Shown here: positions 13,118 to 30,141 of the stretch, one piece after another
Layout: the number at the start of each line of letters is the position of its first letter
Numbering within the stretch: the first letter of the stretch is position 1
Origin: a virus
Strand: one strand, 5' to 3'
Length of the DNA stretch: 64,000 nucleotides
Virus record (IMG/VR): IMGVR_UViG_3300005289_000016
Location: 62,001 to 126,000 of that record
The notes under the pieces: model-generated
Database searches by the model: none
Told to the model about the DNA's origin: nothing
Seen by the model: the letters and a program-made list of their open reading frames with translations, nothing else
Translations under genes and position numbers: made by a program

Positions 13118-14674
13118 ATGAAAATCGATGTCTATAGTCACGGTTTGAGGGTTACGGATGTAATCAACGACCGTGATCTCCAGGCGATGTTGGCGTTTTG
13201 CAGGCCCCTGATCGAGATGGGATATGAGAAGCAGGGCAGGCGATTCGTCCCCAAAGGCCTCCGTACATTTGCCTCCGCTACACGGAATCGAAAAGAGTTC
13301 TACTTCCACCGGAACCAACTCGATGCCCTGAAGCGCCACCTTTTCGGGAATCTGGGCTACGCGCAGCATCTGGTTCCAATCACTCACCACGTCGTTGCCA
13401 AGGACATCTTGCCCAAGGTAGAGTTCGACGTCCGTAAGATGTTCCCACCGCGTGAGCGCCAAGTCGGGATCATCGAATACGTCCTTGATGACCAGAACCC
13501 CAAGTGGGACCCGATCATCAAGATGGTTACATTGCAGACAGGCGGCGGTAAGACCTACGTTGCCCAGTACTGCATGAACAAGCTGCAACTGCGTACGGCT
13601 ATTCACTTTAAAGGCGGTTACGTCTCACGGTGGAAGGATGACCTTGAAGAGACGTTCAAGTTCAAGCGCGGTGAGTTCCTGATTGTCCGTGGTGGTAAGG
13701 ACATGATTGCCCTTCAGCAAATGGCGCTGGACGGTGATCTAGACAAGCTGAAAGTCGTGATCATCACGGCTGCTACCATGCGCGACTACATCAAGAACTA
13801 CGAGGAGTCCAACGGTAACAGCAAGCTGTACCCGATCAAGCCTATCGACTTCTACCCGAAGACCGGTATTGGCTTCCGGGTCACGGACGAACTGCACCAA
13901 GAGTTCCACAACAACTACCGCATCGACCTGTACACTCACACGTACAAGACGCTGGGCCTGTCCGCTACCATGGTCAGCTCGGATGCGTTCAAGAACCGGA
14001 TGTACGACATTGGCTACCCGACGTCTCAGCGACACGACGGTGGCGGTTACAACGTCTACATCGGTGTGACAGCGATCCTCTACCACATGGACCCGGATGT
14101 TCGGATCAAGTTCATGGGGGCTCAGGGTTACTCGCACACCACGTTCGAAGAATCCGTCATGCGGCATAAAGGGCTCCTGAAGTCCTACCTCAAGATCATT
14201 GACCACGCGATCTACAATCGCTTCGTGTCGGTGCGTGAGGAAGGACAGAAGGCACTGGTGTTCTTTGCCCGTGTAGACCTCTGTACGCTCATGGTAGAAC
14301 GTCTGAAGAAGATGTACCCAGAACTGAACGTCGTTCGGTACGTGGGCTCTGAAGGCGACTCCTACGATGAATTGCTGGAAGCCGACATCGGCGTGACCAC
14401 CATTGGTTCTGGTGGTACCGCGATCGACATCAAGAACCTGCGTTGCTCGTTCATGTCGACGGCTATCGATTCGCGTCAATCCAACGAACAGGTACTGGGT
14501 CGTACCCGCCCCCTGATCGGCTGGCCAGACGTGACACCTGAGTTCATTTACTTCGGGTGCCTCGAGATCGAACAGCATTGTAAATACCACCGTAACAAAA
14601 TCGAGTTCTTCAAGGGCAAAGTTGTTTCGCACATGGAAGTCATGTCGAAATACGTCCTGACACTCGCTGGGTGA
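13118..14674 (+). CDS. Superfamily 2 DNA/RNA helicase (UvsW-like)
   Basis: The 518-aa helicase carries motif I TGGGKT (141-146), motif II DELH (257-260), motif III SAT (282-284) and a motif VI block around residue 460 (NEQVLGRTRP), so both RecA-like domains are present. Length and motif forms recall T4 UvsW-like helicases that remodel forks and recombination intermediates. The N-terminal 130 residues form an extra domain before motif I. The ATG lies just after GGGATG with a weak site. The gene has its own leader (10-bp repeats and a TTATG element) and a downstream hairpin, so it may be a separate unit. phiKZ also has a helicase gene just after the RNAP beta' gene (from memory). Confidence 0.88.
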   Translation: MKIDVYSHGLRVTDVINDRDLQAMLAFCRPLIEMGYEKQGRRFVPKGLRTFASATRNRKEFYFHRNQLDALKRHLFGNLGYAQHLVPITHHVVAKDILPKVEFDVRKMFPPRERQVGIIEYVLDDQNPKWDPIIKMVTLQTGGGKTYVAQYCMNKLQLRTAIHFKGGYVSRWKDDLEETFKFKRGEFLIVRGGKDMIALQQMALDGDLDKLKVVIITAATMRDYIKNYEESNGNSKLYPIKPIDFYPKTGIGFRVTDELHQEFHNNYRIDLYTHTYKTLGLSATMVSSDAFKNRMYDIGYPTSQRHDGGGYNVYIGVTAILYHMDPDVRIKFMGAQGYSHTTFEESVMRHKGLLKSYLKIIDHAIYNRFVSVREEGQKALVFFARVDLCTLMVERLKKMYPELNVVRYVGSEGDSYDELLEADIGVTTIGSGGTAIDIKNLRCSFMSTAIDSRQSNEQVLGRTRPLIGWPDVTPEFIYFGCLEIEQHCKYHRNKIEFFKGKVVSHMEVMSKYVLTLAG

Positions 14675-25756: not shown

Positions 25757-26218
25757 ATGTCATTAACGATCGTGGAACAAGACCTGTTTGACGTCCCTGC
25801 CGACACCCGTGTGATCACGATCAATCTGGTCGGGGCAATGGGAGCCGGTGTGGCTCGAACTGCCCGTAACACGGTCCCAGGGCTTCACAAGCACTATCGC
25901 AAGATGTACCCAACGATTGAGCCAGGGAACATCATCACGTATAAACACGAAGACATGCGTTACCTGCTGGTGCCTACCAAACTGGACTGGAGAGATTCTT
26001 CTCCACGGAGTCTGGTGATTCATCACATCAACAAGTTAGCCGTCTTGGCCAGCCGGCACAGACTCGGACGCATTGTCTTACCACCATTAGGTTGCGGTCA
26101 TGGCGGGTTGAGTTGGGAAGACGATATTCAGTACGTCTACCGGGCTCTCTATCCGTTCATTGAAGCAGACATCACAGTCGCTCTAGGCGACAGCAGGAGA
26201 AAGAATGGAAGGTCCTAA
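25757..26218 (+). CDS. Macro-domain protein (ADP-ribose binding)
   Basis: A single macro domain of 153 aa. The phosphate-binding Gly loop is VGAMGAGVAR (25-34) and the second conserved loop is PPLGCGHGGLSW (near 113-124), in the order of the Appr-1''-phosphatase family. Macro domains bind or cleave ADP-ribose groups or related signals. In a phage this could reverse host ADP-ribosylation or remove NAD-derived defence signals; that role is inference. AGAGG precedes the ATG, and the gene has its own promoter motif. The next gene overlaps its end by 14 bases. A second macro-like protein is encoded at 57899. Confidence 0.88.
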   Translation: MSLTIVEQDLFDVPADTRVITINLVGAMGAGVARTARNTVPGLHKHYRKMYPTIEPGNIITYKHEDMRYLLVPTKLDWRDSSPRSLVIHHINKLAVLASRHRLGRIVLPPLGCGHGGLSWEDDIQYVYRALYPFIEADITVALGDSRRKNGRS

Positions 26219-27113: not shown

Positions 27114-27542
27114 ATGACCCGTCTCGTTAACATCAGCAAGAACCGCCTGCAACAAGTCGACCCCAAGGCCCCTGTGATCTCGATCACCGACCGTTACAGC
27201 AACGGCGTAGCCATCCCCGGCAAGGACCAACGTCCGCTGCTGCAAGTGATGTTCTTCCCTCGTGACCATGCTCCAGAACTCGACCCGGAAGGTTGCATGA
27301 CCCAAGAGCGTGCAGAAGAGATCTTCAAGTTTGCTGAAGAGCAACGCGATGCCGGTGCTGAAGTGATCTACGTCCAGTGTGGTGAAGGCCGTATTCGTTC
27401 GTTCACCATCTGTGCCACCCTCGCACAACTCGATGGCTTCGAACACGACCATGCCAACAGCTGCATCAAGTCCGGCATTCTCGATCGTTACACCTACAAC
27501 ATCCTGGGTGACGAGCTGGACAAGCGTCTCCGGGCCGAGTAA
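27114..27542 (+). CDS. CX5R phosphatase (dual-specificity/PTP-like)
   Basis: A 142-aa protein with the active-site loop V-Q-C89-G-E-G-R-I-R95, fitting C-x5-R of cysteine-based phosphatases. The loop is followed by a helix with SFTICATLAQL, as in the dual-specificity fold. D51 in PRDHAPE may be the general acid. The usual His before the Cys is Gln here, which could alter nucleophile strength. Substrates in this family include phosphoproteins, RNA 5' ends and phosphoinositides; the phage target is unknown. AGGAG precedes the ATG. It is the last gene of the macro-domain operon. Confidence 0.8.
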   Translation: MTRLVNISKNRLQQVDPKAPVISITDRYSNGVAIPGKDQRPLLQVMFFPRDHAPELDPEGCMTQERAEEIFKFAEEQRDAGAEVIYVQCGEGRIRSFTICATLAQLDGFEHDHANSCIKSGILDRYTYNILGDELDKRLRAE

Positions 27543-27574: not shown

Positions 27575-27684
27575 CCGGTGGTGGCACATCGCCGGTACTT
27601 TTAGGGGGTCTGTAGAAGGCCTATTCTAGCCTGCTCCGAGACTAGCGTACCCGTCCGCAACATGGCTCGGCTATGAGACCCCCG
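27575..27684 (+). ncRNA. Structured leader or small RNA candidate
   Basis: After TAGTCTATG comes a seven-pair hairpin (27575-27581 with 27591-27597) followed by ACTTTTA. Then an eight-pair closing stem, GGGGGTCT (27604-27611) with AGACCCCC (27676-27683), encloses two hairpins: TAGAA/TTCTA and CCGAG/CTCGG. It ends 31 bases before ATG 27715. It may be a small RNA or the folded 5' leader of that gene. No tRNA T-loop is present. Confidence 0.6.
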
Positions 27685-27714
27685 CCTATTTCAATAACCG
27701 GTAAGGAACTACCG

Positions 27715-28578
27715 ATGCAACTGAATTCTTTCTACACTGGCAGCAAAGTGGTTGGCGCTATCCCAATGTCTCACGACGATTTCTGTCGTTACGTTGGCCG
27801 TGATATCGACCCAGAAGCACTGGACCTCACTGGTTATCTGGTGGAGTACCTGGACGGCGGCAAAGCCAACCACCCGGGCCACGTTGGTTACATCAGCTGG
27901 TCTCCTTCCGAAGTGTTCGAGAAGAACTACATCAGCATCGGTGACATTACCGGCCTAGCGCCGTTCATCATCCGCTTGAAGGCTGAGCGGGCTGAGAACT
28001 ACGACCGCCTCCAGAAGCTGCGTAGCTTCCTGGACATCCAGGACGAGAAGACTCGTGACGAACCTCGTACTGACGAGCGTCAAGCGTTCCTCGACAAGAT
28101 CCCGACCCTGGACATCCAGCATCTGGCCCTGCAACAAGAGCAACTGCGCCTGATGCAAGGTCTGGAAGAAGTTCTGACCCAGCGCTTGGAATTACTGGTA
28201 CCAGAAGCCCGTGTCGAGCACAAAGCCTCGATCCGTTTCTCGGTAGCCAACGGCACTCGCTTCGACATCATGCCACGCGTCTTCAAAGCGCTGGAAGGTC
28301 AGATCGACGCCTGCTGCTACACCGGCACCATCTACAACATCCCGGTCAACTCCATCAAGGTCTTCGGCCAGAATGGCGATCAACTCGATGACGCTACTGT
28401 GCGTGTTGAGAAGATGGTTCGTGGTTTCGGCATCTCTGGCGACATCGGTGAAGAACTGTTGTTCGACATCGGCATGGACGTCCAGCGCGGCATCACTCAC
28501 GTGACCAGCTCGTTCTCGGAAGACTTCCAGATCGAGATCGAAGTACAACTGGCCGACATCAATCGTCGTCTGGTGTAA
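27715..28578 (+). CDS. Hypothetical protein, 287 aa
   Basis: Not recognised as a whole. Residues 35-65 (GYLVEYLDGGK, then GYISWSP and VFEKNY) resemble a short phage domain of unknown function that I have seen in many hypothetical proteins. The middle (95-160) is a charged, coiled helix. ATG 27715 has AAGGA eight bases upstream and follows the structured leader; an upstream in-frame ATG at 27673 falls inside the leader stem. A hairpin with TTATGCC follows the gene. Confidence 0.8.
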   Translation: MQLNSFYTGSKVVGAIPMSHDDFCRYVGRDIDPEALDLTGYLVEYLDGGKANHPGHVGYISWSPSEVFEKNYISIGDITGLAPFIIRLKAERAENYDRLQKLRSFLDIQDEKTRDEPRTDERQAFLDKIPTLDIQHLALQQEQLRLMQGLEEVLTQRLELLVPEARVEHKASIRFSVANGTRFDIMPRVFKALEGQIDACCYTGTIYNIPVNSIKVFGQNGDQLDDATVRVEKMVRGFGISGDIGEELLFDIGMDVQRGITHVTSSFSEDFQIEIEVQLADINRRLV

Positions 28579-28673: not shown

Positions 28674-28682
28674 TAGTCTATG
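28674..28682 (+). promoter_or_regulatory. TAGTCTATG element, probable promoter of the tRNA island
   Basis: Identical to the element at 27562. A folded RNA begins within five bases of it, and the tRNA genes follow on the same strand. Confidence 0.5.
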
Positions 28683-28685
28683 TGA

Positions 28686-28737
28686 AGTGCCCTTGTCCCT
28701 TGACTTTCGGTCGTAAGCGGAAAACGTCCTGGGCACT
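28686..28737 (+). ncRNA. Stem-loop RNA at the start of the tRNA island
   Basis: AGTGCCC (28686-28692) pairs with GGGCACT (28731-28737). Inside is a smaller hairpin, GAC-TTTCG-GTC. It may be the 5' leader of the island transcript. Confidence 0.5.
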
Positions 28738-28746
28738 GAAGCGTTT

Positions 28747-28852
28747 GAGAAAGGGCCTGGCCGCCTGCGGCCGTGATCCGTGCAGCCTTTGAGCAAGCAG
28801 AGGGATCGGCAGCCTTGTGCAGCCACTTGCCGCCGGCGCTGGGCCCTTTCTC
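28747..28852 (+). ncRNA. Folded RNA candidate with 11-bp closing stem
   Basis: GAGAAAGGGCC (28747-28757) pairs perfectly with GGCCCTTTCTC (28842-28852). The interior holds hairpin GGCCG-CCTG-CGGCC, a GATCC/GGATC stem and a GGCAG/CTTGCC stem, so it reads as a multibranch RNA of 106 nt. It ends nine bases before tRNA-Tyr. It is not a tRNA: no T-loop and no CCA. It resembles in position the small stable RNAs of unknown function in the T4 tRNA cluster. Confidence 0.65.
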
Positions 28853-28861
28853 ATCCTATCC

Positions 28862-28950
28862 GGAGAGATTTCTGAGCGGTCAAAAGAATCAGACTGTAAA
28901 TCTGACGTGCGTAGCGCACTTCGTAGGTTCGAATCCTTCTCTCTCCACCA
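28862..28950 (+). tRNA. tRNA-Tyr (GTA)
   Basis: Acceptor GGAGAGA pairs with TCTCTCC, followed by A and encoded CCA. The anticodon stem is TCAGA/TCTGA with loop CTGTAAA, anticodon GTA. A long variable arm (GTGCG/CGCAC) is present, as expected for class II tRNA-Tyr, and the T-arm is canonical. Confidence 0.95.
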
Positions 28951-29015
28951 TTTCAATGACGGTCGCAGCAATGCGAGGTTGACCCCGCACTGAATCAACA
29001 GTGCCTGTCGCCATA

Positions 29016-29092
29016 GGTTCTATAGCTCAGTTGGTTAGAGCACCGGCCTGTCACGCCGGGGGTCAGGGGTTCAAGTCCCCTTAGAGCCGCCA
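29016..29092 (+). tRNA. tRNA-Asp (GTC)
   Basis: Acceptor GGTTCTA/TAGAGCC, discriminator G, encoded CCA. Anticodon stem CCGGC/GCCGG with loop CTGTCAC gives anticodon GTC. D- and T-arms are canonical. Confidence 0.95.
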
Positions 29093-29097
29093 CATTT

Positions 29098-29176
29098 AGG
29101 GGTGTAGCCAAGTCTGGCCTAAGGCAACAGGTTTTGATCCTGTCATTCTCTGGTTCGAATCCAGATGCCCCTTCCA
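29098..29176 (+). tRNA. tRNA-Gln (TTG)
   Basis: Anticodon stem ACAGG/CCTGT with loop TTTTGAT gives anticodon TTG. Acceptor AGGGGTG/TGCCCCT has a weak A1-U72 pair, in line with the weak first pair of glutamine tRNAs; discriminator T, then CCA. It starts six bases after tRNA-Asp. Confidence 0.92.
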
Positions 29177-29185
29177 TGTTGTATA

Positions 29186-29287
29186 GTTCACTGCCCATTG
29201 GCCGCATAGTCCCGCAAGCCCCTTCAAGGCGAAGCGAATGGGACTGGCAGCGCAGGGGTTCTGGGTACAGCCCAGCAGTGAACGCCA
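29186..29287 (+). ncRNA. Folded RNA candidate with acceptor-like stem and GCCA end
   Basis: GTTCACTG (29186-29193) pairs with CAGTGAAC (29276-29283) and is followed by GCCA, like the ends of tRNA-Asp and tRNA-Asn here. Inside are a six-pair stem CCCATT/AATGGG with an apical GCC/GGC hairpin, and a CTGGG/CCCAG hairpin next to the closing stem. There is no TTCGA T-loop and no recognisable anticodon arm. It shares the strings TGGCCGC and GGGA-x-x-GGCAGC with the RNA at 28747. Confidence 0.6.
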
Positions 29288-29288
29288 T

Positions 29289-29364
29289 TCCGCGATAGCT
29301 CAGTTGGTAGAGCATACGGCTGTTAACCGTAGTGTCCCTGGTTCGAGTCCAGGTCGTGGAGCCA
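29289..29364 (+). tRNA. tRNA-Asn (GTT)
   Basis: Acceptor TCCGCGA/TCGTGGA, discriminator G, encoded CCA. Anticodon stem TACGG/CCGTA with loop CTGTTAA gives anticodon GTT. It starts one base after the GCCA of the preceding RNA. Confidence 0.95.
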
Positions 29365-29563
29365 TACGCGCTCGAAAGAGCCAAACAGTAAGGTTGGTTA
29401 AATTCCGACACGCTGACCGTGGGCAGTTGCGAAGGGAGTGCGGTTCGATCCCGCATGATAAGTCTCAGAGGCAATAACCTCTGAGTAACTCTGGTGAGAC
29501 AAATGGTCAGGCCGACCCGGCCTTTAAACGCACTGGCGTAATCCAGTCGAGGGGTGGAGATAT
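29365..29563 (+). other. Spacer with orphan tRNA T-arm and several hairpins
   Basis: No protein gene. It holds hairpin GCTC-GAAA-GAGC, a canonical T-arm at 29439-29455 (TGCGG, loop TTCGATC, CCGCA) without a matching 5' acceptor strand, an eight-pair hairpin CTCAGAGG/CCTCTGAG (29464-29485), and hairpins AGGCC/GGCCT and ACTGG/CCAGT. It may be a decayed or rearranged tRNA plus small RNAs. Confidence 0.55.
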
Positions 29564-29672
29564 AGTCCTGTAGCTCAGTTGGTTAGAGCGCTGCCTTTTC
29601 AGGCCGGACCCTTCGGGGTCGTCGGCCTAACAGACACGGCGGAGGTCGGTAGTTCGAATCTACCTAGGACGA
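29564..29672 (+). tRNA. tRNA-Glu (TTC) with probable 35-nt insertion in the anticodon loop
   Basis: The D-arm GCTC/GAGC, variable loop AGGTC and T-arm GGTAG-TTCGAAT-CTACC are canonical. The anticodon stem pairs only across a gap: CTGCC (29591-29595) with GGCGG (29638-29642). The 42-nt loop starts TTTTCA and ends C. Removing 35 nt (about 29602-29636) leaves TTTTCAC, the glutamate loop with anticodon TTC. The insertion folds as AGGCCG/CGGCCT with inner GACCC/GGGTC. The acceptor has six good pairs (GTCCTG/TAGGAC) and an A-G mismatch at 1-72. CCA is not encoded. Confidence 0.7.
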
Positions 29673-29677
29673 CCCTT

Positions 29678-29740
29678 TCAATCAGCGGCATTCATGCGCG
29701 GCGCGCATGGTGTACTCGGACGAGGTCCCGCTGGTTGGAT
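29678..29740 (+). ncRNA. Folded RNA candidate with 10-bp closing stem
   Basis: CAATCAGCGG pairs with CCGCTGGTTG (one wobble). Inside is the hairpin CATGCGC-GGC-GCGCATG and a small CTCG/CGAG hairpin. It lies between tRNA-Glu and the interrupted tRNA region and is not a tRNA. Confidence 0.5.
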
Positions 29741-29750
29741 TCAGTTAGAC

Positions 29751-29898
29751 GATGATATAGCTCAGTGGTAGAGCGGTGAGGGTAAAGACGAGACTCGGGT
29801 TCGATTCCCGGAGGACTGTGCTAGAACACAGGCCTTAGCTCAGTGGTAGAGCGCGGTCGTGCACCTTGCAGGCGTCGGTTTGATTCCGGCTATCGTCG
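29751..29898 (+). tRNA. Nested, permuted tRNA-like arrangement (outer tRNA interrupted by a tRNA-Cys-like permuted unit)
   Basis: Two D-arms (GCTC/GAGC at 29760-29774 and 29838-29852) and two T-arms (29795-29811 and 29874-29890) are present, but neighbours do not pair. The first 5' acceptor GATGATA (29751-29757) pairs seven of seven with the last 3' strand TATCGTC (29891-29897). The inner 3' strand AGGACTG (29812-29818) pairs six of seven with the downstream CAGGCCT (29829-29835), joined by a short loop. The order is 5'half-A, 3'half-B, 5'half-B, 3'half-A. Joining the B halves gives a loop GTGCAAA with anticodon GCA (Cys). The anticodon of A cannot be fixed. Confidence 0.5.
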
Positions 29899-29904
29899 CA
29901 CCTA

Positions 29905-30090
29905 CACGTCTCATGGGTGTGCACGCCCAGTGAGCTGACTCTACTCGAGGTCCGTCTGAGTAGATGTCAGAGTGTTACCTGATGGACTGCTGTACGATCT
30001 GGCTCATGCCAGCCGCAGCATGTGACTCGACCGAACAGTGGTCGACAAAGCCTCTAGCTTGCTCGCTTGTCTTTTAAGGCAGGCGGGCAG
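29905..30090 (+). ncRNA. Array of stem-loops after the tRNA genes
   Basis: Consecutive hairpins: CTCA/TGAG enclosing GGG/CCC; CTACTC/GAGTAG; TGCTG/CAGCA enclosing CTGG/CCAG; TCGACC/GGTCGA; and an 11-pair stem (30061-30071 with 30078-30088, loop TTTTAA). No open frame or T-loop occurs. It could be one non-coding RNA or the 3' processing region of the island transcript. Confidence 0.5.
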
Positions 30091-30141
30091 TTATGCCGTT
30101 TCACTATCGCTTGGGGAAGCGATCCAACTAGGGAGCGTTAC

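Follow-up and report, generated by a model that had tools for sequence, protein, structure and literature searches.

The 64,000-nucleotide stretch analysed here (the window), from an IMG/VR virus genome of 276,032 bases, carries at 28682-30098 on the + strand an island in which eight or nine further structured RNAs accompany four standard tRNAs, all encoded on one strand (Table 1). ARAGORN calls the four tRNAs, and Rfam at gathering scores returns the same four plus a fifth, insert-bearing one. No conserved gene lies between the island RNAs in the window genome; small ORFs do occur between them in relatives, and the set of RNAs varies from one relative to another. A first-pass annotation had picked out four folded non-tRNA segments among the tRNAs, naming covariation and an Rfam search as checks; its refuting condition, stems that lack covariation or are missing from related phages, was checked and the outcome favours the RNAs. 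Conserved structured RNAs are indeed present there: all four segments were recovered with small corrections, and their stems are kept in relatives with compensatory changes. That account is extended here by RNAs A, C, R5 and N, by the tRNA with an insert, and by the promoter and the setting of the island in its phage.

Table 1. Features of the RNA island in the window, and loci of RNA family G in relatives.
Feature	Position	Strand	Description	Evidence
phiKZ-type late promoter	28679..28682	+	TATG	Candidate from motif; kept in L008, L009, L025
RNA A	28682..28741	+	5' leader	Homologues L008, L009, L025; closing stems differ
RNA B	28746..28853	+	12-bp clamp around three-way junction	Covariation, covariance model
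tRNA-Tyr(GTA)	28862..28950	+		ARAGORN, Rfam
RNA C	28953..29014	+	~60 nt, hairpin TCGCA-gcaa-TGCGA	Homologue L025
tRNA-Asp(GTC)	29016..29092	+		ARAGORN
tRNA-Gln(TTG)	29098..29176	+		ARAGORN
RNA E	29184..29287	+	9-bp clamp, then GCCA	Homologues L008, L009
tRNA-Asn(GTT)	29289..29364	+		ARAGORN
RNA R5	29407..29560	+	T-arm-like hairpin (GTGCGG TTCGATC CCGCAT) and three more hairpins	
Glu-type tRNA body	29564..29672	+		Rfam RF00005, 50 bits
RNA D	29676..29743	+	68 nt, 10-bp stem and two hairpins	Homologues L008, L009
RNA N	29747..29902	+	Predicted nested tRNA	Compensatory changes, window vs L025
N, outer body	29751-29757/29891-29897; 29760-29774; 29874-29890		Acceptor; D1; T2	
N, inner body	29795-29811; 29812-29820/29827-29835; 29838-29852		T1; closed acceptor; D2	
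RNA F	29905..30098	+	Helices and pseudoknot, terminator hairpin, TTATGCCG	Covariation, covariance model
RNA G (relatives)	L008 8121-8244; L009 8105-8228; L025 15123-15246; L045 5730-5852; L046 4249-4113			

Late promoters of phiKZ consist of TATG, with the last G as the transcription start (PMC4666361), and the start G predicted in this way at the left edge of the island, 28682, is where RNA A begins. The island's 3' end is formed by a terminator hairpin and then TTATGCCG (to 30098). This sequence occurs in seven copies in the window, at 14162, 14698, 30091, 30547, 36321, 43542 and 51087, against 1.0 expected, and as it stands directly 3' of hairpins at 30091 and 30547 it is probably the terminator tail of the clade.

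The nearest named relative of the window genome is Pseudomonas phage pPa_SNUABM_DT01 (DT01, MW735835), and IMG/VR holds five further relatives of full or near-full length, namely G001 (locus L008), G002 (L009), G005 (L025), G003 (L016/L045) and G004 (L018/L046), as well as L007, a 94 kb contig nearly identical to L008. Chimallin, as a homologue of phiKZ gp54 (24-25% identity), is encoded in all seven clade genomes, and in each it is adjoined by a homologue of gp55, an RNA polymerase subunit; with both genes present throughout, the clade is, judged by gene content, one of divergent nucleus-forming-type jumbo phages. Stems of the island are kept through compensatory changes in the six relatives, the alignments of the RNA families holding 2-7 sequences each, with C, N and R5 resting on two solid ones. 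Covariance models were run on 16 genomes, comprising the seven of the clade and phiKZ, PhiPA3, 201phi2-1, OBP, EL, Phabio, Noxifer, D6 and RVTF4.

RNA B had been reported as a stem of 11 pairs at 28747-28852, and it proves one pair longer, with 12 perfect pairs (28746-28757/28842-28853); it is the sole stem in the 64 kb window with at least 11 pairs and a loop of 30-110 nt. The same fold is predicted independently in seven genomes, with clamps of 11-16 bp that vary widely in sequence and yet contain canonical pairs only, and the covariation score exceeds that of all 500 shuffles even on a plain, sequence-only MAFFT alignment. The covariance model (CM R3) finds B as a single copy in each clade genome (7/16) and not in the nine phiKZ-like phages outside the clade. 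In L007, 103 nt corresponding to RNA B are lost at a GGC repeat (L007 7000-7010 vs L008 7005-7118), the two being otherwise identical across ~1.9 kb around it; with B missing from so close a relative, either this is a natural deletion and B is dispensable in nature, or the hairpin was lost in assembly.

The clamp of RNA E, previously counted as 8 pairs, has 9 perfect pairs (29186-29194/29275-29283) before the GCCA end, and four pairs show double compensatory change in the L008 and L009 homologues. The suggestion that B and E form one family did not hold and was dropped: the B model, built from seven genomes, misses 29184-29287 at E<=1, L008 reads GGTCGC where the window has the shared motif GGGA-x-x-GGCAGC, and the folds of B and E differ.

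In the alignment of RNA F, 98.3% of cells are paired, against 33-43% with the partner slid, and double changes occur in 21 of 43 pairs, against 2-4 with the partner slid. The region had been described as five hairpins in a row, and the hairpins are there together with the terminator, but a pseudoknot makes it more than such a row: the hairpin loop TCCRTC pairs with GATGGA, with two half-changes and no break across seven genomes. A second pairing, GAGG/CCTC, is constant. Model CM R2 finds F as a single copy in every clade genome (7/16) and in none of the nine phiKZ-like phages outside the clade. Identity to L008 at the DNA level is 90.8% in F and 72% and 62% in the flanking genes. BLAST of B, F, G and a 200-nt RNA of G004 against 50,697 phage records returned only DT01, for F, the weak matches being probably due to chance; one IMG/VR locus, L015, was rejected because it matched the F pattern by chance, apparently within a coding region. 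RNA G is absent from the window genome and present in G001-G005, with double changes in 10 of 28 pairs and a near-invariant core (AAAGTAACCCTCGTAAGGTGAA...GGAAAA...CACGAGAGGA) within a covarying 12-bp clamp.

Among the smaller RNAs, D does contain the ten pairs described earlier (29679-29688/29728-29737), though they are not all perfect, a G-U being included, and three of its pairs show double compensatory change. R5 has seven such pairs relative to its L025 homologue. RNAs A and C are established as conserved, covarying RNAs less securely than B, E, R5, D, N, F and the Glu-type element. In A (z -1.39), the stem 28686-28692/28731-28737 closes a conserved loop, GTCCCTT...GCGRAAAACGTC. The 3' end of C, CTGTCGCCA, resembles that of a tRNA, and the L025 homologue has a compensatory hairpin, CCGTA-gcaa-TACGG, and the end CTGCCACCA, in a comparison of two sequences only.

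The Glu-type element, which ARAGORN does not call, has a cloverleaf of acceptor, D-arm and T-arm that is paired in three genomes, and within the anticodon loop it carries an insert consisting of a 28-nt hairpin (29601-29628) and the tail AACAGACA (AACA...). The insert hairpin is kept with sequence change in L008 and L009. The element does not combine a 7-nt anticodon loop with a conserved usable anticodon, and in L008 the loop has another length and another putative anticodon. The insert shows no bulge-helix-bulge motif, its internal loop being 4-5 by 8-9 nt. The tRNA splicing endonuclease PF01974 is absent from ten phage genomes in a search whose control was positive, neither RtcB nor the RNA ligase PF09414 is encoded in the clade, and in the PF09511 search the control itself gave no match. 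Bodies similar by eye are seen in Noxifer (L005 3485-3576), in D6, as 'tRNA-OTHER' (L003 3506-3588), and in G004 (L046 4911-4830). At L009 7297-7500, a Leu/Ser-like tRNA whose variable arm is very large also has an anticodon-loop hairpin, followed by the same AACA as the Glu-type tail.

RNA N reads from 29751 as acceptor 5' strand, D-arm, arm 1, T-arm and a closed 9-bp hairpin, and onwards to 29902 as D-arm, arm 2, T-arm and acceptor 3' strand. All seven positions of the outer acceptor are paired, as GATGATA/TATCGTC in the window and as GACGTCA/TGACGTC in L025, and three of these pairs show compensatory change, two on both sides and one on a single side. Two pairs of the inner, closed acceptor likewise carry double changes; in the register of two tandem tRNAs the acceptors would pair in just 2-3 of seven positions. 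All helices of N are paired in both genomes, including the module of T-arm, closed acceptor and D-arm. As predicted from these pairings, N consists of two tRNA-like bodies, one lying within the anticodon arm of the other, and the inner one is circularly permuted because the acceptors pair nested rather than in tandem. Arms 1 and 2, which take the anticodon positions, are identical but for one base between the two genomes, and this near-identity suggests a putative binding site. A search for the two arms in IMG/VR, and for one of them also in 84,980 prokaryote genomes, matched only the relative G005. In L018 a candidate third N agrees in helix order (7/7, 8/8, 5/5, 4/4) with other sequences, but its first D-arm does not fit, and it is therefore taken as tentative. 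Matches of YrlA (RF02553) to N fall at the same place in both genomes with 23.1 and 27.1 bits, against a cut-off of 69, and were dropped as evidence since ordinary tandem tRNAs in L025 reach 24.9 bits. No TROVE/Ro protein was found in ten phage genomes.

For the island RNAs, stability alone is weak evidence, as the z-scores are modest and the island does not stand out in a sliding scan, and covariation is decisive. Folded with exact ends, B reaches a z-score of -3.25, D (29676-29743) -3.22, E -2.74 and the F core -2.38, the remaining RNAs lying between -1.05 and -2.20, and in a sliding 110-nt scan the island mean of -0.53 equals that of the rest of the window. Double compensatory changes were found in each of E, R5, D, the Glu-type insert and N, counted over helix arms picked by hand from the folds in 2-3 sequences each. 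Rfam at the gathering cut-off returned only tRNA matches for the window and relatives, leaving B, E, D, R5, F and G without a family; at permissive thresholds there were sub-threshold matches alone, chiefly to tRNA-like families.

The whole of 28682-30098 is best explained, with moderate confidence, as a non-coding RNA operon of the phage. Read from TATG to terminator by the non-virion RNA polymerase that the phage itself encodes, it would give one transcript, host tRNA-maturation nucleases would excise the tRNAs and thereby free the RNAs between them, and the long clamp stems may shield the freed RNAs from exonucleases. As every member of the clade has kept B and F, these two are core phage RNAs and probably bind protein. 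More tentatively, the tRNA-shaped RNAs (the Glu-type element, N, and perhaps C and R5) might be non-decoding tRNA mimics that occupy tRNA-binding host factors, for which tRNA-cleaving defence nucleases, processing or decay enzymes, and ribosomes are candidates; in the Glu-type element a hairpin takes up the anticodon loop, and in N a second tRNA body replaces the anticodon arm. It is a still more speculative idea that a two-headed tRNA mimic, hairpin-loaded tRNAs and new RNA families are brought together in one operon in order to intercept tRNA-targeting defences or to take over translation.

The most serious rival takes the extra RNAs for processing spacers, structured linkers or signals that keep tRNAs apart, direct RNase P, RNase E or RNase Z and are functionless once released. 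Their placement between tRNAs, the NCCA at the end of several, the clamps, which would isolate each fold, and the variable set among relatives all fit such a role, yet every clade genome has B and F, whose conserved loops and pseudoknot go beyond the needs of a spacer, no tRNA follows F at the end of the island, and in relatives Tyr and Asp, or Gln and Asn, adjoin without a spacer; on this evidence the spacer reading is possible, if somewhat unlikely. Phage tRNA clusters turn over fast, and this, together with the single-sequence energies and the sliding scan described above, would suit decaying tRNA genes among random hairpins, the tRNA-like pieces being pseudogenes. That reading is very improbable, as the helices are preserved by compensatory changes, which contradict it for B, F, G and N, and in N the swapped acceptors covary where the tandem register pairs poorly.

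It is also conceivable, though improbable, that the genes of the Glu-type tRNA and of N contain introns, the insert being spliced out to leave a working tRNA and, from N, a circular permuted tRNA as well. The canonical place of tRNA introns is position 37/38 (PMC4090602), the Glu-type insert lies at or beside it, excision in the window would leave the Glu-type loop TTTTCAC, and N does resemble a permuted tRNA inside a tRNA. Against this, a bulge-helix-bulge and the splicing and ligation enzymes sought in the clade are missing, the inserts are too short for group I or II introns, and L008 has one T fewer, so that the same splice would give the anticodon TCA rather than TTC. Equally doubtful is N as a phage Y RNA working with a Ro/Rsr protein or polynucleotide phosphorylase, for which the order of T-arm, closed acceptor and D-arm and the weak YrlA matches in both genomes may be cited; those scores are far under the cut-off and within reach of tandem tRNAs, Ro is lacking, and an outer tRNA body is foreign to Y RNA.

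The non-coding RNA operon preferred here has partial counterparts elsewhere. The T4 tRNA cluster includes species 1 and 2, stable non-tRNA RNAs that are co-transcribed with the phage tRNAs. As a precedent, T4 had been raised in the first-pass annotation and is a fair analogy of setting, but it has two such RNAs, whereas the clade encodes ten or more kinds of structured RNA. A closer precedent with data is phiKZ, where a Northern-verified, 3'-UTR-derived ncRNA of ~100 nt lies between PHIKZ298 and PHIKZ297 and ends in a terminator (PMC8545117); like the island RNAs it belongs to a jumbo phage, is of similar size and has its gene next to tRNA-Asn and tRNA-Asp, but it is a single two-hairpin RNA, and neither F nor B is found in phiKZ by CM R2 and R3. 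The bacterial Y RNA is a circularly permuted tRNA mimic of T-arm, closed acceptor hairpin and D-arm (PMC11472068), a permuted layout that YrlA shares with the inner body of N; unlike YrlA, N has an outer body with its own acceptor, D-arm and T-arm, and lies in a phage genome without Ro. In archaea and algae, permuted tRNA genes have the gene order of the inner part of N and intron-bearing tRNA genes have inserts, like that of the Glu-type element, near 37/38, but these phages have neither a BHB motif nor a splicing endonuclease.

Over half of the cluster is RNA of other kinds, at least ten across the clade, none in Rfam and most with compensatory changes. The usual interpretation of a phage tRNA cluster is that it serves codon supply or the replacement of tRNAs. 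The old puzzle of the stable T4 cluster RNAs becomes testable in the culturable phage DT01, the covariance models can be used to find more such RNAs, and N may represent a new tRNA topology, a tRNA nested in a tRNA.

Further structured RNAs were noted nearby and in relatives. At 27600-27690, directly after a second TCTATG and in the leader of an ORF at 27715, lies one with the stem GGGGGTCT/AGACCCCC (-33.5 kcal/mol), kept in L008, L009, L025 and partly in DT01. G003 and G004 have in common a tRNA-like RNA of ~200 nt (L016 2960-3165; L018 6027-5845, - strand) that starts with GGGATCTTAGCATAG, ends with GGGGGTTCGAATCCTCAATTTCCCGCCA and has no Rfam match. In G004 (L046 5960-5300, - strand) the ORF of a NUMOD4 homing endonuclease comes after a tRNA-Asn-like 5' half, which looks as if the endonuclease had entered the tRNA gene, and L016 has a similar ORF close to RNA F. 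Structured stretches between tRNAs of D6 (L003 3098-3215, 3590-3720 and 3730-3785) repeat the motif TAAAACGA, which echoes GGTAAAGACGAG in arm 1 of N. Upstream of the island, the ORF at 25757-26218 is macro-domain-like (21 bits, just under the Pfam cut-off) and the DT01 counterpart of that at 27114-27542 is annotated as a tyrosine phosphatase; both possibly have RNA end-healing functions.
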